Positions 9,084-34,850 of a stretch of DNA of 64,000 nt are shown here, one piece after another. Numbering within the stretch: position 1 is the stretch's first letter; each line of letters opens with the position of its first letter. Source of the DNA: Tibeticola sediminis (GTDB taxonomy: Bacteria > Pseudomonadota > Gammaproteobacteria > Burkholderiales > Burkholderiaceae_C). A program made the translations under genes and the position numbers. Location of the stretch: contig NZ_RKQL01000004.1 of assembly GCF_003843835.1 (NCBI RefSeq), forward strand, positions 193,501 to 257,500, given 5' to 3'. A model generated the notes under the pieces. The model was not told the DNA's origin, made no database searches, and saw only the letters and a list, made by a program, of their open reading frames with translations.

Positions 9084-10010
9084 TCAATCGGCACCAACGA
9101 GCACCCGCACATGGGCTGCGACGCTGCGCGCCAGCGCGTTGGGCTCATAGCCACCTTCGAGCGTCGAAATGAGCTTGCCGCCGCAATGGCGTCGCGCCAC
9201 CACCAGGAGCTGCTGGGTGAGCCACTCGTAATCCCGGTCAACCCAGCCCAGATTGCCCATGTCGTCGTCGCGATGCGCGTCAAAGCCCGCCGAGACGAAG
9301 ATGAGCTGCGGCTCGAAACGATCCAAGGCCGGCAGCCAATGCTCCAGCACCGCCGCGCGCAGTGCCTCGGACGCTGTGCGCGTGGGCAGCGCCACATTGA
9401 CCATGTTCGGTCGGCGTTCGTCTTCGCCGCAAAACGGATAAAGACCGCGCTCGAATACCGAGCACATCAAGACGCGTTCGTCATCGCGAAAGATGTCCTC
9501 GCTGCCGTTGCCGTGATGCACGTCGAAGTCGATCAGGGCGACGCGCTCGAGCCCATGCACATCGAGCGCATGACGGATGCCGACCGCGGCATTGTTGAAA
9601 AAGCAAAAACCCATGGCGCGTTCGCGCTCGGCGTGATGTCCGGGCGGCCGCACGCAGCAAAAAGCGTTGGTGATTTCCCCAGCCAAAACAAGGTCGGTGG
9701 CAAGCACACAGGAGCCAGCGGCTCGAAGCGCGGCGCGCACCGTGTGTGGATTCATCAGTGTGTCGGGGTCTACGGGGCGATAGCCGTCCAAGGGGGCGGC
9801 GCTCAGGATTTCCCGAACGTACAGAGCCGTGTGCGCCCTCGCGAGCTGTTCTTCGGTGGCCAGCGGCGCGTCGAACGCGTGCATGTAGTCGAGCAGGCCT
9901 TTGGCAAGTAAGTGGTCGTAGATCGCATGCAGACGTACCGGCGCTTCGGGGTGCGAGGGCCCCATTTCGTGGCGCAGGCAATCGGGGTGGGTAATGAAGC
10001 CGCTGAGCAA
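9084..10010 (-). CDS. HDAC-family zinc deacetylase (AcuC/histone deacetylase-like)
   Basis: The 308-residue protein has the complete arginase/deacetylase active site: RPPGHH at 121-126, DFDVHHGNG at 161-169 with zinc ligands Asp163 and His165, SAGFDAH with the third ligand Asp244, and the catalytic tyrosine in EGGYEP (288). The family removes acetyl groups from polyamines, lysines or other small amides. Bacterial class II members like this are usually acetylpolyamine or protein deacetylases, and the substrate cannot be told here. The best start is TTG at 10010, which gives the usual GFITHPDCLRHEMG opening; no ATG fits. The gene borders the candidate origin. Confidence 0.9.
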   Translation of the reverse strand: MLSGFITHPDCLRHEMGPSHPEAPVRLHAIYDHLLAKGLLDYMHAFDAPLATEEQLARAHTALYVREILSAAPLDGYRPVDPDTLMNPHTVRAALRAAGSCVLATDLVLAGEITNAFCCVRPPGHHAERERAMGFCFFNNAAVGIRHALDVHGLERVALIDFDVHHGNGSEDIFRDDERVLMCSVFERGLYPFCGEDERRPNMVNVALPTRTASEALRAAVLEHWLPALDRFEPQLIFVSAGFDAHRDDDMGNLGWVDRDYEWLTQQLLVVARRHCGGKLISTLEGGYEPNALARSVAAHVRVLVGAD

Positions 10011-10090
10011 GAGGTGCTTTCGATACGAGTGAATCCGGACCGCAATCGGCGCCCCGCGGGGGGAAGGGGTGGGGCTAGGAAGGGGTTTGG

Positions 10091-10345
10091 ATGTTTATCC
10101 TAGATATGGCTATTTCAAATTAGTCGTAGTAGTAGGTCAAGCCGGTTTTTTGGGGAAAGTCGAGTTTTTCCTGAGCGGACAAGGACTTAAGGCCGGGACA
10201 GCCCTGTGAACCGAGGTCGATTGCAGCTGTCTCGCGTATAGGGACAACTTCGCTACAGGGGTGGGTCGTGTGGATAAGCCGGATTTATGCGGGAAGTTAT
10301 CCACAGACTTATTCCAGGAAACCATTGCCCAAGGCTCGGGCCGAT
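10091..10345. other. Candidate replication origin region (oriC)
   Basis: This is the core of a 422-bp gap (10011-10432) without a credible gene. It holds an AT-rich segment (10091-10136, about two thirds A+T in a chromosome that is about two thirds G+C) ending in TAGTCGTAGTAGTAG (10121-10135), which resembles DnaA-trio repeats. T-runs at 10146-10152 and 10175-10179 follow, then two perfect DnaA boxes in opposite orientation. Genes to the left are mainly leftward, and the parS/parAB segregation region lies 17-24 kb to the right. Only two strict boxes are present and dnaA is not in the window, so the call is tentative. The rest of the gap shows no other structure. Confidence 0.55.
10269..10305. 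promoter_or_regulatory. Pair of perfect inverted DnaA boxes
   Basis: TGTGGATAA (10269-10277) and TTATCCACA (10297-10305) are exact matches to the DnaA box consensus in opposite orientation with 19 bp between them. A partial TTATCC occurs at 10095-10100. DnaA binding is the natural reading, either for origin firing or as a DnaA-titrating or regulatory site. Confidence 0.7.
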
Positions 10346-10394
10346 GAGTCGAAGCCGTGGCGTGGATGTGCAAGGACGCAGACCGACCGCACCC

Positions 10395-10432
10395 GGCCGG
10401 CGCGGCGCGGACGGACCCGGCTCAGCGTTGCC
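10395..10432. repeat. Degenerate family A fragment at the ubiM 3' end
   Basis: The sequence CCCGGCTCAGCGTTGCC at the right side is the outer end of family A, and the complement of the ubiM stop codon (10433-10435) follows it with no gap. The internal part is diverged. Confidence 0.45.
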
Positions 10433-11629
10433 TCACGCCGTCAGCGCGCGGGCGATCCGATGTTGGAAGGGCGGGAAGGCCGCGGCGGCGCGCAAGGCCA
10501 GGCGGCGCAGCGTCCGAGCGGCCGGACGTTCGTCGGTGTAGAGACCGACGATGGCTTGCGTGGTGAGATAGAGGCTGCGCGTGTCGCGGCGATGCCGGCG
10601 TTCGTAAGCAGCCAGCGGCTCGAAGGCTCCGGGGTCGGCCTGTTGAGCCGCGGCGCGGCGTAGGCGACTCGCGAGCGTGCTGACGCCCAACAAGCCGAAG
10701 TTGAAGCCGTGGGCCGTGACCGGGTGCATGCCGACCGCGGCGTCGCCGATGCAGGCAAAGCGCGGGGCGGCGATGCGCTCGGGCCACACCGAAACCAAGG
10801 GGTAGACATGCCGCTGGCCCTGGAGCTGCATCGCACCAAGCCGGTGGGCGAATCGTGCGGCGACGGCTTGGTTGAACGCCTCGGGCGTGTCGTGGCACAG
10901 GGCTTCGATGTCGGCTGCGGGCAGGGTGATGACGACCGAAGCGCGCGGCCGACCGGTTTCGGGGTCGGGATTCATCGGCAACAAGGCGAGCGTCTGGCCG
11001 TGGTCGAACCATTCCCAGGCGGATTGGGCGTGGTCGCGTTCGTGGGTCATCGCGCAGACCAGCATGCTGCGGCCGAAATCTCGATGGGTGGCGGCGATGC
11101 CGAGCATGCGCCGGGTCGAGGAAAAGCGGCTGTCGGCAGCGATCAGCAGTCGGCCCTGCAGTTGTCGCCCGCTGGCGAGGGTGAGGTGGGCGACGTCGGG
11201 CTCGACCTGGGCCTGGACCACCCGGTCCTCGAAGTAAAAGTCGCCGGCCGGTTGCCCGCCGCGGGCGCTCGCGCAGGCCGCAAGGGCGGCGCGACGGATG
11301 TGGTGGTTGGAGACGAGAAAACCGAGTTCATTGGCACCGCAGCTTCGCGCGTCGACGACGAGCGGTTTCGGATCGGGGCCGTCGAAGATGCAGGCACGGC
11401 GCAAGGGGGCGCGGTGCTCGGGGGCGATACGGGCCCACAGACCGAGGTGCTGCAAGGTTCGAACCGATTGCTGCGTGAGAGCGATCTCGCGGCCGTCCTC
11501 GGGCGGGTCTTGAAGCTCGGCCTCGCGCAAGGGATCGATGAGGGCAATGCGCCAACCGGTCGAGGCCAGGGCGGTCGCAAAGGCCAAGCCGGCCGGCCCG
11601 GCACCGACCACGAGAATGTCGTAATTCAT
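10433..11629 (-). CDS. ubiM: UbiH/VisC-family FAD monooxygenase, probably UbiM-type ubiquinone ring hydroxylase
   Basis: This 398-residue flavoprotein hydroxylase carries GAGPAG at 9-14, a diverged DG motif (AADSRFSSTR, about 165-174) and the second FAD motif GDAAVGMHPVTAHGFNFGL at about 295-313. That last segment fits the ubiquinone-ring hydroxylases UbiH/UbiF/VisC. The VGMHPVTAHGFN wording is what I recall for UbiM, the broad-specificity hydroxylase, so the symbol is a family-level guess. Its job would be adding hydroxyl groups to the benzoquinone ring at the inner membrane, in the same pathway as ubiB at 1.9-3.6 kb. It stands alone beside the candidate origin. Confidence 0.75.
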   Translation of the reverse strand: MNYDILVVGAGPAGLAFATALASTGWRIALIDPLREAELQDPPEDGREIALTQQSVRTLQHLGLWARIAPEHRAPLRRACIFDGPDPKPLVVDARSCGANELGFLVSNHHIRRAALAACASARGGQPAGDFYFEDRVVQAQVEPDVAHLTLASGRQLQGRLLIAADSRFSSTRRMLGIAATHRDFGRSMLVCAMTHERDHAQSAWEWFDHGQTLALLPMNPDPETGRPRASVVITLPAADIEALCHDTPEAFNQAVAARFAHRLGAMQLQGQRHVYPLVSVWPERIAAPRFACIGDAAVGMHPVTAHGFNFGLLGVSTLASRLRRAAAQQADPGAFEPLAAYERRHRRDTRSLYLTTQAIVGLYTDERPAARTLRRLALRAAAAFPPFQHRIARALTA

Positions 11630-27379: not shown

Positions 27380-28681
<1,302 letters not shown>

Positions 28682-28881
28682 GCGATGGGTTTCCTTTTGG
28701 GATGAAGGGTTCGCGCGGGTGTGCGCGCGCTCGGCGCGGGTCGCGCCGAGCAAGCTTAATCCGCTTCGGACCGCAAAAATCGGGCCTGCGGGTTTCCCCC
28801 GGGGTGCTTAGCGCGCGCCCAATGGCCCTTCCCTCTTCAGCTTTCCCTCCCCAACAGTTCCCCCAAACGCCGGCGAACCGA

Positions 28882-28887
28882 TAAAAT
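28882..28887 (+). promoter_or_regulatory. Possible -10 element ahead of mnmG
   Basis: TAAAAT is the only AT-rich hexamer in the 278-bp divergent gap between gdhA and mnmG (28682-28959). It lies about 73 bp upstream of the mnmG start. No convincing -35 accompanies it, and the remainder of the gap shows nothing else recognisable. Confidence 0.25.
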
Positions 28888-28959
28888 TGGCGCCCCTCAT
28901 CCGGCAGGGCGTGCGCCATCTTGCTGCCGCGTCAGCCCCCCTCTCCCTTGGTGCTCGAC

Positions 28960-31026
28960 ATGCTTTATCCCGAAGAATTCGACGTCATCGTCGTCGGCGG
29001 CGGCCATGCCGGCACGGAAGCGGCGCTGGCCAGCGCGCGCATGGGTTGCCGCACGCTGCTGCTCACGCACAACATCGAGACGCTCGGGCAGATGAGCTGC
29101 AACCCCAGCATCGGCGGCATCGGCAAGGGGCATTTGGTCAAGGAGGTGGATGCGCTTGGCGGCGCGATGGCGCTGGCCACCGACGAGGCGGGCATTCAGT
29201 TCCGCATCCTCAACAGCTCCAAAGGCCCGGCGGTCCGGGCCACGCGCGCGCAGGCCGACCGCGTGCTCTACAAGGCGGCGATCCGGCGGCGGCTCGAGAA
29301 CCAGCCGAACCTGTGGCTGTTCCAGCAGGCGGTCGACGACCTGATGGTCGAGGGCGATGGGGATGGGGCGCGGGTGACGGGCGCGGTCACGCAAATCGGC
29401 ATCCGTTTTCGGGCGCGTGCGGTGGTGCTGACGGCGGGGACTTTTCTCGACGGCAAGATTCATGTGGGGCTGCAGCACTACGCCGCGGGCCGCGCGGGCG
29501 ACCCGCCGGCGGTGTCGCTCTCCGCGCGCCTCAAGGAGCTCAAGCTGCCGCAAGGCCGGCTCAAAACCGGCACGCCGCCGCGCATCGACGGCCGCACCAT
29601 CGATTTCTCCAAGTGCACGGAGCAGCCGGGTGACGGCATGCCCGGTGGCCTGCCCGGGCCGGTTCCGGTGTTCAGTTTCATGGGCCGGCCGGACATGCAC
29701 CCGCGGCAACTGCCGTGCTGGATCACGCACACCAACGAGCGCACGCACGACATCATCCGCTCGGGCTTCGACCGCAGCCCCATGTTCACCGGCAAGATCG
29801 AAGGCGTGGGGCCGCGCTATTGCCCGAGCGTCGAAGACAAGATCAACCGCTTTGCGGGCAAGGACAGCCACCAGATCTTCCTCGAGCCCGAGGGGCTGAG
29901 CACCCACGAGTTCTATCCCAACGGCATTTCCACCAGTCTGCCCTTCGACATCCAGTATGCGATGGTTCGCAGCCTGCCGGGGCTGGAGCACGCCCACATC
30001 CTGCGGCCCGGCTACGCGATCGAGTACGACTACTTCGATCCGCGCGGGCTCAAGCGCAGCTTCGAAACCAAAGCGATTTCGGGTCTGTTCTTCGCCGGCC
30101 AGATCAACGGCACGACGGGCTATGAGGAGGCCGCGGCCCAGGGCTTGTACGCCGGCATCAACGCGGCGCTTCAGGTCCGGGGTGAAGCGCCCTGGGTGCC
30201 GGCGCGCGACGAGGCGTATCTCGGAGTGCTGGTCGACGACCTGGTCACGCAGGGCGTGACCGAGCCCTACCGCATGTTCACGAGCCGCGCGGAGTTTCGC
30301 CTGCAACTGCGCGAGGACAATGCCGACCTGCGTCTGACGGAGACCGGCCGTCGCCTGGGCCTCGTCGACGACGCGCGCTGGGAGGCGTTCTGCCGCAAGC
30401 GCGATGCGGTTTCACGTGAAACCGAGCGCCTCAAGTCGACCTGGGTGAACCCGCGCATCCTCAGCGCCGCGGAGGCCGAGCGGGTGTTGGGCAAACCCAT
30501 CGAGCGCGAATACCCCTTGTTCGAATTGATGCGCCGCCCGGGTGTGGGCTATGCCGAACTGATGGGTCTCGAAGGGGGGCGTTGGGCGCCGGCGCCGCAG
30601 CCCGACGATGCGGATGGGCGCCCGCTGGTTTCACGTGAAACACTGGGCGAGCTTTACGCGGCCGTGGTCGAGCAGTTGGAGATCGCGGCCAAATACGCGG
30701 GCTACATCGAGCGGCAGAAGGACGAGGTGGAGCGGGCGGCGGGCCACGAGTCTTTGCGCCTGCCCGAAGACCTGGACTACACCCAGGTCAGCGCGCTGTC
30801 GATCGAGGTGCGGCAAAAGCTGCAAAAACACCGCCCGGAAACGCTGGGCCAGGCCGCGCGCATCTCGGGCGTGACCCCGGCAGCCATCTCGTTGTTGCTG
30901 ATCCATTTGAAGAAAAAGGGCTACAAGGACTTTGGCGGTGCGCGCGGGCCGAAGGTGGCTTCGCCGGTGGATTTGGCGCAGGATGCGGCTGAGCCCGCGG
31001 CCGTGCCCGGGGTGGCGGCCTCGTGA
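28960..31026 (+). CDS. mnmG: tRNA uridine-5-carboxymethylaminomethyl modification enzyme MnmG (GidA)
   Basis: The 688-residue FAD protein works with MnmE to modify the wobble uridine of several tRNAs. Seen: [14 protein letters not shown] at the N terminus, [17 protein letters not shown], the KTGTPPRI motif, the insertion domain, [21 protein letters not shown], and a C-terminal helical domain ([17 protein letters not shown]). At 688 residues it is longer than E. coli MnmG (629), mainly through an insert near 555-575 and an Ala-rich tail. Two parS palindromes are read in frame as VSRET (residues near 485 and 558). It starts at ATG 28960 and overlaps rsmG by GTGA. Confidence 0.96.
30408..30423. 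promoter_or_regulatory. parS site 2 (inside mnmG)
   Basis: GGTTTCACGTGAAACC is a perfect 16-bp palindrome whose 14-bp core equals the ParB consensus. It is read as VSRET in MnmG. Confidence 0.88.
30627..30642. promoter_or_regulatory. parS site 3 (inside mnmG)
   Basis: GGTTTCACGTGAAACA contains the full 14-bp core and differs from consensus only in the first base. It is 219 bp from parS site 2 and also read as VSRET. Confidence 0.88.
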
Positions 31027-31736
31027 CGGCGACGCCTCGCACCCAGGCGGTCGCCGCGCTGCGCGGGCCTTTGCGCGCAGGCGCCGAGGCGCTGGGCTGG
31101 GCGCTGACCGAGGCGCAGCTCGAGGCCTTGCTGGATTACCTCGAGCTGATCGCCAAGTGGAACCGGGTCTACAACCTCACGGCGGTGCGCGAACCGGCCG
31201 AAATGCTGACCCACCATGTGCTCGACAGCCTGGCGGTCGTCGGGCCCTTGCGGCGGCAGCTTCAGGCGCAGGGTCTGGCGGGGCCGCGGCGGGTGCTCGA
31301 TGTGGGCTCGGGAGCCGGCCTGCCGGGCGTCGTGCTGGCCTTGTGCGCGCCTGAGCTCGAGGTGAGCTGTGTGGACACGGTGGCGAAGAAGGCGGCTTTC
31401 ATCCAACAGGCGGCGGTGGCCTTGCGCTTGCCGAACCTGCGGGGCCTGCATGCACGGGTCGAGACGCTGTCCGCCGCGCGCGGCCAGGCGTATGACGTGG
31501 TGACCTCGCGCGCGTTTGCGTCGCTCTCCGACTTCACGCGCTGGTCGCGGGCGGCCTTGGCCGAAGGGGGCTTTTGGATGGCGATGAAGGGGCGCGTGCC
31601 CGACGACGAGATCGCCGCGCTGCCGCCCGAGGTGTCGGTGTTTCACGTGGAACGTCTCACCGTGCCGGGCTTGGACGCCGAGCGTTGCATCGTTTGGATG
31701 CGGCCCGCCTCGCTGCACGACGCCGCACTCACGTAA
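31023..31736 (+). CDS. rsmG: 16S rRNA (guanine-527-N7)-methyltransferase RsmG (GidB)
   Basis: The 237-residue SAM-dependent enzyme methylates G527 of 16S rRNA. The motif-I loop is [18 protein letters not shown], preceded by [21 protein letters not shown] and LDSLAV, and followed by [12 protein letters not shown]. Start GTG at 31023 overlaps the mnmG stop (GTGA), the usual coupling in this operon. It carries parS site 4 near its 3' end, read as VFHVERL. At 237 residues it is slightly longer than E. coli RsmG (207). Confidence 0.95.
31639..31654. promoter_or_regulatory. parS site 4 (inside rsmG)
   Basis: TGTTTCACGTGGAACG matches the ParB site except at two positions. It lies about 0.8 kb upstream of parA. 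Confidence 0.75.
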
Positions 31737-32439: not shown

Positions 32440-33219
32440 GTGGCGCGGATTTTCTGTGTAGCCAACCAAAAAGGCGGGGTCGGCAAGACCACCACCACCG
32501 TGAACCTGGCGGCGGGGCTGGCCAAGGTCGGCCAGCGCGTGCTCATGGTCGACCTCGACCCGCAGGGCAACGCCACCATGGGCTCGGGCGTCGATAAGCG
32601 GGAATTGCGTCTGAGCGTCTATGACGTGTTGCTCGGGGCCGCTGAGGTCCGCGAGGCCGCCTTGGCTGCGGAGCGCGCAGGCTACGCCGTGTTGGGCGCG
32701 AACCGTGAACTCAGTGGCGCGGAAGTCGAGCTCGTCGGGCTGCCCCAGCGCGAGAAGCGCCTCAAAGCGGCGCTCGCCGCCGTCGATGCGGACTATGATT
32801 TCGTGCTGATCGACTGCCCGCCGAGCCTGAGCCTGCTCACGCTCAACGGTTTGTGCGCCGCGCACGGCGTGATCGTGCCCATGCAGTGCGAATACTTCGC
32901 GCTCGAAGGCTTGACCGACCTCGTCAACACCATCAAGCAGGTGCACGCGAACCTGAACCCGGAACTGAAGATCATCGGTCTGTTGCGCGTCATGTTCGAC
33001 CCGCGCATCACCTTGCAACAACAGGTCAGCGAACAACTCAAGGCGCATTTCGGCGCCAAGGTGTTCGACACCGTGATTCCGCGCAACGTGCGCCTGGCCG
33101 AGGCGCCGAGCTACGGCCTGCCGGGCGTGGTGTTCGACCCCTCGGCCCGTGGCAGCCTGGCCTTCGTCGAGTTCGCCCGCGAGATGGTCGCGCGCGCGCA
33201 GCGGCCCGATTTTCAGTAG
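32440..33219 (+). CDS. parA: Chromosome-partitioning ATPase ParA (Soj)
   Basis: The 259-residue product has the deviant Walker A QKGGVGKTTTT at 10-20, Walker A' VDLDPQGNATMG, and VLIDCPPSLSLLT as Walker B. YFALEGL and DPRITLQQQVSEQL follow. It lacks the N-terminal helix-turn-helix of plasmid ParA, so it is the chromosomal Soj type that moves ParB-parS complexes after replication. The start is GTG at 32440 with a GGGGGAGGG site. parB follows after one intervening gene, and four parS sites lie 0.8-4.6 kb upstream. Confidence 0.95.
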   Translation: MARIFCVANQKGGVGKTTTTVNLAAGLAKVGQRVLMVDLDPQGNATMGSGVDKRELRLSVYDVLLGAAEVREAALAAERAGYAVLGANRELSGAEVELVGLPQREKRLKAALAAVDADYDFVLIDCPPSLSLLTLNGLCAAHGVIVPMQCEYFALEGLTDLVNTIKQVHANLNPELKIIGLLRVMFDPRITLQQQVSEQLKAHFGAKVFDTVIPRNVRLAEAPSYGLPGVVFDPSARGSLAFVEFAREMVARAQRPDFQ

Positions 33220-33225
33220 GTTTCA

Positions 33226-33285
33226 AAGCTTTTCGCCGGAACCCTAGCGCCAAATGGTCAGATTGCGCTATCAAAAAGTGAACGC
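33226..33285. repeat. Family D repeat between parA and the hydrolase gene
   Basis: The minus strand reads CACTTTTTGATAGCGCAATC, then TGACCATTTGGCGCTAGGGT and TCCGGCGAAAAGC. This is the best-preserved reversed copy of family D, filling the 78-bp gap after the parA stop. Confidence 0.65.
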
Positions 33286-33297
33286 ACGGGGTGGTCG

Positions 33298-33858
33298 ATG
33301 AGCCCGCTCGCCCCCGTGCTGACCCTGCCCGGCTGGCTCGGCAGCGGCCCAGACCACTGGCAAAGCCGCTGGGAGGCGCTGTACGGCTTCACCCGCGTGG
33401 AGCAGCACGACTGGCTGCGCCCGCTGCGCGGCGACTGGAGCGCGCGGCTCGACGAGGTGCTGCTCGAGCAGCGCGAGCCCGTGGTGCTGGCCGCGCACAG
33501 CCTGGGCTGCATCCTGGTCGCCTGGTGGGCCGCGCACTCGCGCCACACCGACCGCGTGCGCGGCGCGCTGCTGGTTGCGCCGCCCGAGGTGGAGCGCGAG
33601 GACCTGCGGGCGCAGATCCCCGGCTGGGCGCCGATTGCCCGCACGCGGCTGCCATTTCCGTCCACCGTCGTGGCCAGCATTGATGACCCCTATGGCTCGG
33701 CCGAACACGCCGCGGCGCTGGCGCTGGCCTGGGGCAGCGGCCTTTTCATCGCCGGCGCGCGCGGCCACCTCAACGCCGACTCGGGCCTGGCCGACTGGCC
33801 CGAAGGCGTCGCCTTGTTGCAGGCGCTGCGCGAAGCTGCGGTATCAGCACCCGATTGA
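33298..33858 (+). CDS. RBBP9/YdeN-family alpha/beta hydrolase
   Basis: The 186-residue protein opens PVLTLPGWLGSGPDHWQSRWE, the family hallmark. It has the nucleophile elbow AHSLGC, an acid loop at SIDDPYG, and the catalytic histidine in GARGHLNADSG. RBBP9/YdeN proteins are small serine hydrolases of unknown substrate. It lies between parA and parB with the parB start 17 bp after its TGA, so it is within the partition operon. A role in segregation is not supported by anything in its sequence; position could simply be conserved synteny. Confidence 0.88.
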   Translation: MSPLAPVLTLPGWLGSGPDHWQSRWEALYGFTRVEQHDWLRPLRGDWSARLDEVLLEQREPVVLAAHSLGCILVAWWAAHSRHTDRVRGALLVAPPEVEREDLRAQIPGWAPIARTRLPFPSTVVASIDDPYGSAEHAAALALAWGSGLFIAGARGHLNADSGLADWPEGVALLQALREAAVSAPD

Positions 33859-33875
33859 CTTTCAAGGAATTTCCC

Positions 33876-34850
33876 ATGGCCACCAAAAAACCCAAAGGGC
33901 TCGGACGCGGGCTCGAAGCCTTGCTTGGGCCGACCGTTCAGGAGCGCTCCGGGAGCGATGCCGCCGCGCCGGCCGCCGATTCGGCGCCCGCGAGCTTGCC
34001 GCTCGAACGGCTCGTGCCCGGCCGCTACCAGCCGCGCACGCGCATGGACGAGGGCGCGCTCTATGAACTCGCCGAGTCGATCAAGGCGCAGGGCATCATG
34101 CAGCCGATTCTGGTGCGCCGCCTCAGCGCCGAGGACGCTGCGCAGCGGCGCGCGCAGGGCGGCGCTGCCGATGCAGCGAACGCCGCCACGCCGCTGTATG
34201 AAATCATCGCCGGTGAGCGGCGTTTCCGTGCTGCGGCGCTGGCAGGCCTCGCGGAAGTGCCGGTGCTGGTGCGCGAGGTGGACGATCAGGCCGCGGCGGC
34301 GATGGCGCTGATCGAGAACATGCAACGCGAGGACCTCAACCCGCTCGAAGAAGCGCAGGGCTTGCAGCGGCTGATCCGCGAATTTGGCTACACCCACGAG
34401 CAGGCCGCGCAGGCGGTGGGCCGCTCGCGCTCGGCGGCGTCCAACCTGCTGCGGCTCCTGAATCTGGCCGAACCGGTGCAGACCATGCTGATGGCGGGCG
34501 ACCTCGACATGGGCCATGCGCGCGCGCTGCTCGCCCTCGAGCGCGCAGCGCAGATCACGGCCGCGAACCAGATCGTGGCCAAGTCGCTCTCGGTGCGCGA
34601 GGCCGAGGCGCTGGTGAAGAAGATCGGCGCCGAATTCGCGCTGGCGCCGCAGAAGGCGCGCAAGGAAAAGTCGCGCGACTTGAAGCGCGTCGAAGAGGAA
34701 CTGTCCGACCACTTCGCTGCCGAGGTCGAAGTGCGCATCAAGAAACGCGTCAAGCGCGCGGGTCGGGTGGACGAGGCGGGGGAACTGGTGCTGCACTTTG
34801 CCTCGCTCGACGAGCTCAACGGCCTCATCGAGCGGTTGCGCGCGGCCTGA
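33876..34850 (+). CDS. parB: Chromosome-partitioning CTPase/DNA-binding protein ParB (Spo0J)
   Basis: The 324-residue product begins KKPKGLGRGLEALLG, the ParA-interacting N terminus. The CTP-binding domain follows, with IIAGERRFRAAALAG and IENMQREDLNPLEEA. The helix-turn-helix (YTHEQAAQAVGRSRSAASNLLRLL) binds parS, and the C-terminal dimer domain ends with LVLHFASLDELNGLIERL. A 14-residue Ala-rich insertion (about 96-108, RRAQGGAADAANA) lies between the N arm and GERR box. ATG at 33876 has AAGGAA upstream. Its own parS sites are the four in gdhA, mnmG and rsmG. Confidence 0.96.
   Translation: MATKKPKGLGRGLEALLGPTVQERSGSDAAAPAADSAPASLPLERLVPGRYQPRTRMDEGALYELAESIKAQGIMQPILVRRLSAEDAAQRRAQGGAADAANAATPLYEIIAGERRFRAAALAGLAEVPVLVREVDDQAAAAMALIENMQREDLNPLEEAQGLQRLIREFGYTHEQAAQAVGRSRSAASNLLRLLNLAEPVQTMLMAGDLDMGHARALLALERAAQITAANQIVAKSLSVREAEALVKKIGAEFALAPQKARKEKSRDLKRVEEELSDHFAAEVEVRIKKRVKRAGRVDEAGELVLHFASLDELNGLIERLRAA

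Follow-up and report, generated by a model that had tools for sequence, protein, structure and literature searches.

The window, a stretch of 64,000 nucleotides from Tibeticola sediminis, corresponds to C4:193501-257500 of a genome of 2.73 Mb in ten contigs, in the following called the own genome; family and order are those of this organism, and G001 is a genome of the same genus. At 10011-10432 the window contains a gene-free gap, and minC, minD and minE are found just outside the two genes that flank it. Identical neighbours flank the gap in G001, as judged by eye from the DNA. Within the gap lies a module of about 200 bp. From left to right it consists of an AT-rich tract, the DnaA-trios with a decayed DnaA box close to them, weak box-like sites and two perfect inverted DnaA boxes. 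The features are listed below, with offsets counted from the conserved core.

9084-10010, minus strand: histone-deacetylase-family gene, left neighbour of the gap
10011-10432: gene-free gap between the histone-deacetylase-family gene and the UbiM-like ubiquinone hydroxylase gene, predicted oriC
10092-10151: AT-rich tract, 65% AT over 60 bp, overlapping trios and spacer; probable start of unwinding, as predicted
10112-10134, plus strand: conserved core ATTTCAAATTAGTCGTAGTAGTA
10121-10135, plus strand: DnaA-trio tract TAGTCGTAGTAGTAG (TAG TCG TAG TAG TAG; read 3'-GAT-5'), from sequence and alignment
10136-10149: spacer between the trios and the proximal box position, from alignment; the limit given in the available part of PMC8287927 is 16 bp
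10150-10158, minus strand: position of the decayed trio-proximal DnaA box, with 3 or 4 mismatches according to the register and strand chosen
10239-10247, minus strand: weak DnaA-box-like site TAGGGACAA, 2 mismatches, counted by eye
10269-10277, minus strand: perfect DnaA box, first of the inverted pair, offset +157
10297-10305, plus strand: perfect DnaA box, second of the inverted pair, offset +185
10347-10432: copy of a dispersed repeat, last 86 bases of the gap, outside oriC, from BLAST copies
10433-11629, minus strand: UbiM-like ubiquinone hydroxylase gene, right neighbour of the gap
27840, 30408, 30627 and 31639 (27840-31654), plus strand: four parS-like sites, 0.05 expected
32440-33219, plus strand: ParA-family gene, called from best matches that are below their cut-offs
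33855-34850, plus strand: ParB-family gene, TIGR00180 above cut-off

A preliminary description of this DNA had proposed a chromosomal origin away from dnaA, based on two perfect inverted DnaA boxes, an AT-rich stretch in a GC-rich chromosome and a run resembling DnaA-trios at 10121-10135, and all three elements were found again. The 60 bp starting at 10092 have the highest AT content of any 60-bp stretch in C4 170001-257500 (87.5 kb) as compared to a local mean of 32%, providing the AT-rich element of an oriC; across the entire 310-kb contig C4 the same value is reached by 125 of 305,235 60-bp starts, located in seven 1-kb bins. The consensus of a trio is 3'-GAT-5' (PMC8287927, in the part available). 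At 10127-10135 three consecutive TAG are present, in agreement with the rule that three or more trios should have adenine in the middle; the preceding TCG is without this adenine.

The number of DnaA boxes is uninformative, as it is at chance level in the window (four sites with at most one mismatch versus a mean of 7.25 in shuffled sequence) as well as in the genome (14 TTATNCACA sites versus 14 for the reversed pattern), and box counting alone was discarded as evidence. What is beyond chance is the conserved arrangement rather than the number of boxes. Pairs of DnaA boxes less than 40 bp apart occur only twice in the own genome, the pair in the gap and one on contig C1. The latter consists of two perfect boxes in direct tandem, 11 bp apart (L001 1501-1520 = C1:211476-211495), and could be a DnaA-regulated promoter or a titration site. 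The dispersed repeat of about 86 bp that ends the gap occurs at least 11 more times in the own genome, including once inside the window (C4:206410-206495), and 11 times in G001.

Conservation in related genomes had been suggested as a check of the origin proposal, and the module turned out to be nearly ubiquitous. The core pattern, searched with at most 3 mismatches, matched 76 of 299 family genomes versus two of 299 for a reversed-pattern control. This search was superseded by a sequence-only profile, R1, built from 31 aligned copies including that of the window. R1 detects the module, in one or more copies each, in 283 of the 299 family genomes (E up to 0.01; 31 of the 283 being sources of the profile), as would be required of an oriC, and in 260 of 267 genomes of good quality (at least 90% complete, at most 5% contaminated); at the same E value no match was obtained in 16 of the 299. 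In the own genome R1 has a single match, at the module, with all 125 candidates scored. BLAST with the whole gap matched four of 60 relatives, the own genome among them, whereby the match in G001 comprised only the dispersed repeat, that in G005 the core and one weak match to the repeat, and that in G021 the core and the sequence after it. Among 80 loci fetched via the histone-deacetylase-family protein a clear module was present in three: in L046 (a Hydrogenophaga MAG) and L051 (a Burkholderiaceae MAG) it lies, as in the window, less than 200 bp upstream of the histone-deacetylase-family gene, and L049 (Hydrogenophaga aromaticivorans) contains two copies 382 bp apart. Two more matches at 5 mismatches among these 80 loci look like chance.

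In addition to its presence, the geometry of the module is conserved. In 33 loci the density of DnaA boxes (at most one mismatch to TTRTNCACA) is 14.1 per kb within the module versus 0.97 per kb in the surroundings; together with the perfect inverted pair this constitutes the box cluster in an intergenic gap that is expected of an oriC. Box offsets from the core are fixed, at about +38 in 28 of 32 loci, at +157 in all 32 and at +185 in 23, the last two being the perfect inverted pair of the window; a right-hand box is located within +172 to +199 in 29 of the 32, and in nine a further box with one mismatch or none is located between +116 and +129, the counterpart of the weak site at 10239-10247. 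Although the core served to select the loci, it cannot on its own give rise to boxes as distant as those at +157 and +185. These counts cover 32 of the 33 loci, L154 being omitted for its expanded trio tract. In L154 (G174) the tract is about 50 bp longer through TAG repeats and the module otherwise normal, a trinucleotide-repeat expansion within an origin.

The distance of about 130 bp between trios and boxes had been named as a weak point of the origin proposal. The distance is real, 134 bp to the strong boxes, yet 28 of the 32 loci, G001 among them with TGTGGGCAA, have a box that departs from TTRTNCACA in no more than one position and is separated from the trios by about 14 bp, whereas the same position of the window has at least 3 mismatches. 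The long distance in the window is thus explained by decay of a proximal box that most relatives have kept. According to the available part of PMC8287927, the rule for the bacterial unwinding system demands a DnaA box with at most 2 mismatches 0-16 bp from the trios; the window deviates from it with 3 or more mismatches at 10150-10158.

Where is the module located relative to dnaA? The preliminary description had noted that dnaA, dnaN and gyrB are absent from the window, which is correct: the three genes are consecutive on the same contig (about 180.7-186.2 kb), left of the window, and dnaA is 22 kb to the left of the module at C4:203,606, not within the few kb over which an oriC would count as adjacent. 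Because this gene order is intact, a break separating dnaA from dnaN is not what took the module away. The dnaA-dnaN gap of the own genome contains no module, no box with at most one mismatch and, by eye, no trios. Two DnaA boxes are found in the rpmH-dnaA gap (C4:180806-180863), one of them almost at the start of dnaA, and probably serve dnaA autoregulation; trios were not seen there by eye.

The position was determined in 97 family genomes, which were selected rather than drawn at random (40 of the 76 pattern matches and 57 among the profile matches listed, with fewer contigs preferred). In 36 of the 97 a copy of the module lies just 3' of dnaA; in 34 of these the middles of the copy and of the DnaA ATPase domain are 0.94-1.34 kb apart, and the orientation is identical throughout; in L144-L146 dnaN starts directly beyond the trios, by eye. 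The 36 include G277, judged to be near because its single contig is cut close to dnaA, with the module near the end, dnaA at the start and the orientation of the near cases, and G295, for which a second copy at dnaA was found when R1 was rerun on 63 genomes (50 far ones, G310 and 12 with the module on another contig) to look for copies at dnaA. The module is 8.4-596 kb from dnaA without a copy at dnaA in 49 of the 97 (G310, at about 62 kb, among them), and the best copy is on a contig other than that of dnaA in 12; in two of these a weaker second copy does share the contig of dnaA, at a distance of 59 kb (G014) and 65 kb (G168). Within a single family the distance thus varies between about 1 kb and about 600 kb. 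Outside the family, R1 matched 39 genomes of the order, of which 14 were checked for dnaA. Six of the 14 (G329, G361, G373, G365, G366 and G052; four families, two of the matches weak) carry the module 3' of dnaA, and this shared place in other families suggests that the dnaA-dnaN gap is probably the older, ancestral site. In G415, G436 and G353 the module is displaced from dnaA by about 50, 38 and 346 kb, in G042 and G472 it lies near the far end of the contig, and in G351, G039 and G488 matches are far from dnaA or on another contig and may be chance, those of G039 and G488 being weak.

The strand composition switches at the module. On C4 the GC skew amounts to -0.015 from 100 to 180.6 kb, on the left side of dnaA, and to -0.002 in the stretch from dnaA to the module; it is +0.072 over the 36 kb right of the module and +0.046 further on, as far as 300 kb. 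The fit of a single step to 304 of the 310 1-kb bins, from which N-rich bins and bins below 40% GC were dropped, is best at 203,000, with the edge at 204,000 lower by 2.6 and dnaA worse by 6.9 log units; the skew is weak and the bootstrap range of the step wide (188-241 kb), with dnaA outside of it. Cumulative skew had been proposed as a check. The raw cumulative curve of C4 has a flat floor and reaches its minimum at 186.6 kb, closer to dnaA; it was replaced as origin marker by the step fit, which favours the module. A step at the module also beats a step at dnaA in six of eight sampled relatives, by 9.9 log units in G309, 3.9 in G240, 3.4 in G306, 3.1 in G259, where dnaA is 596 kb from the module, and 2.7 each in G279 and G253, as fitted on all fetched stretches of each relative except G001, for which 16 of 20 were used. 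At the module of G309, which is 34 kb away from dnaA, a skew of -0.048 gives way to one of +0.047. G001 is neutral, its module step being at -0.36 log units relative to the dnaA step, with positive skew between the two where negative would be expected. In G185 skew is weakly positive between dnaA and the module, sampled only in stretches right of dnaA, and a second module is situated half way, 46 kb from the first. Sufficient flanking sequence was available for 26 of 30 module loci, and in 22 of these the skew on the right of the module exceeds that on the left (means +0.054 and -0.003), with loci oriented by the module and gene strand uncontrolled.

The parS sites and parAB genes named in the preliminary description were likewise found again. 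Four matches to the parS consensus are located 17.5-21.3 kb from the boxes, and mnmG, rsmG and the genes of the ParA and ParB families lie at 28.9-34.8 kb of the window, the latter two at 32440-34850. An origin of a second chromosome was discarded as an explanation, as dnaA, mnmG and the parS-like sites are all on the contig of the module.

Judged from its sequence, the gap at 10011-10432 is very probably the chromosomal oriC, at which replication would start in the cell, and the origin proposed in the preliminary description is supported by conservation of the module, its fixed geometry, its place between dnaA and dnaN in relatives and the skew step. It could be imagined instead that replication starts beside dnaA, in the rpmH-dnaA or the dnaA-dnaN gap, and that the module is an accessory DnaA-binding site, for which speak the two boxes in the rpmH-dnaA gap, the raw skew minimum at 186.6 kb and the neutral fit of G001. 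However, R1 matches nothing else in the own genome, both gaps at dnaA appear devoid of trios, and the skew step favours the module on the own contig as well as in six of eight relatives, with dnaA as far off as in G259, rendering an origin beside dnaA very improbable.

Even less probable is the alternative raised in the preliminary description, a DnaA-titrating or regulating site of the datA or DARS kind, which would limit active DnaA and start no replication. Such sites hold clustered boxes in the absence of an unwinding element or skew switch. The presence of just two perfect boxes, 134 bp from the trios, would be compatible with this proposal, but the trios, the AT-rich tract and the skew step, all of them origin features present in the gap or on the contig, would be left unexplained, as would the near-universal occurrence of the module in the family and its position at dnaA-dnaN in relatives. 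That boxes and TAG repeats merely coincide in an AT-rich gap would agree with the chance-level box counts in window and genome, but in view of an aligned module in nearly all family genomes and of the excess of core matches over the reversed control, the probability of such a coincidence is negligible.

How might the predicted oriC work? By analogy to Bacillus subtilis, and from the anatomy and conservation of the module, DnaA would bind to the box cluster, above all to the inverted pair 10269/10297, and a DnaA filament would extend to the trio tract and capture the TAG-bearing strand, whereupon the AT-rich tract left of the trios could open for loading of the helicase. Without a good proximal box, the filament in the window may be seeded from the inverted pair or from the weak intermediate sites.

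The kind of oriC is already known; what is notable is the free movement of a conserved module relative to dnaA within one family. In the ancestor the module would have resided between dnaA and dnaN, in the lineage of the window between the histone-deacetylase-family gene and ubiM, a direction of movement that we infer. Copy numbers bear on how it may have moved. Of the 49 displaced genomes, 26 have two or more copies at E up to 1e-5 (including G005, G291, G231, G217, G004, G154 and G185), versus, among the matches listed, five of the 36 that carry one at dnaA (G182, G156, G297, G199 and G295), relatedness being uncorrected in this comparison. G245 also has multiple copies. Extra copies are in tandem, inverted or kilobases apart, and multi-copy genomes possibly have bipartite or duplicated origins. 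One copy at dnaA-dnaN is accompanied by a more distant one in G156 (25 kb away) and in G295 (29 kb away), G182 has two inverted copies 3' of dnaA, and G297 one on each side of dnaA. A tentative explanation, to which we would assign not quite an even chance, is that the oriC of the family, as a portable unit of about 200 bp, has time and again left the dnaA-dnaN site by copying and subsequent loss of the old copy, whereby dnaA, dnaN and gyrB can stay together. This explanation gains weight through G295 and the copy counts; if it is true, G156 and G295 are intermediates, and G297 and G182 represent earlier steps.

For the 49 of the 97 selected genomes with displaced modules, finding the origin or setting the genome start by dnaA would be wrong by 8 to about 600 kb, whereas the R1 profile would mark oriC directly, also in draft genomes. 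Moreover, the varied distances within one family could serve as natural experiments on whether the initiator gene has to be close to the origin. In titles and openings of abstracts of open-licence literature no report on displacement of oriC from dnaA in Comamonadaceae, Burkholderiales or Betaproteobacteria was found, from which we do not claim that it is unreported.

Among known systems, the module resembles the basal unwinding system of B. subtilis, which consists of boxes 6 and 7, a spacer and trios and is predicted across bacteria (PMC8287927, in the part available). Common to both are trios of the sequence 3'-GAT-5' beside an AT-rich tract, a trio-proximal box (in 28 of 32 loci, at a distance of about 14 bp) and, in part of the family, the dnaA-dnaN site. 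In contrast to B. subtilis, the window has a decayed proximal box and 134 bp between trios and strong boxes, and its module is 22 kb away from dnaA.

In Escherichia coli, oriC is separated from dnaA by tens of kb, as is the module in the window. The neighbours differ, the histone-deacetylase-family gene and ubiM with minCDE close by in the window, and the distance to dnaA varies from about 1 to about 600 kb among the relatives. The predicted oriC of Yersinia pestis is located between gidA and mioC, as in E. coli (PMC10225481, in the part available). Some relatives with two modules, G297 with one on each side of dnaA among them, are reminiscent of Helicobacter pylori. The parts of the H. pylori oriC flank dnaA. 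They are two in number, according to the accessible part of PMC8235120, whereas the genome of the window has one module.
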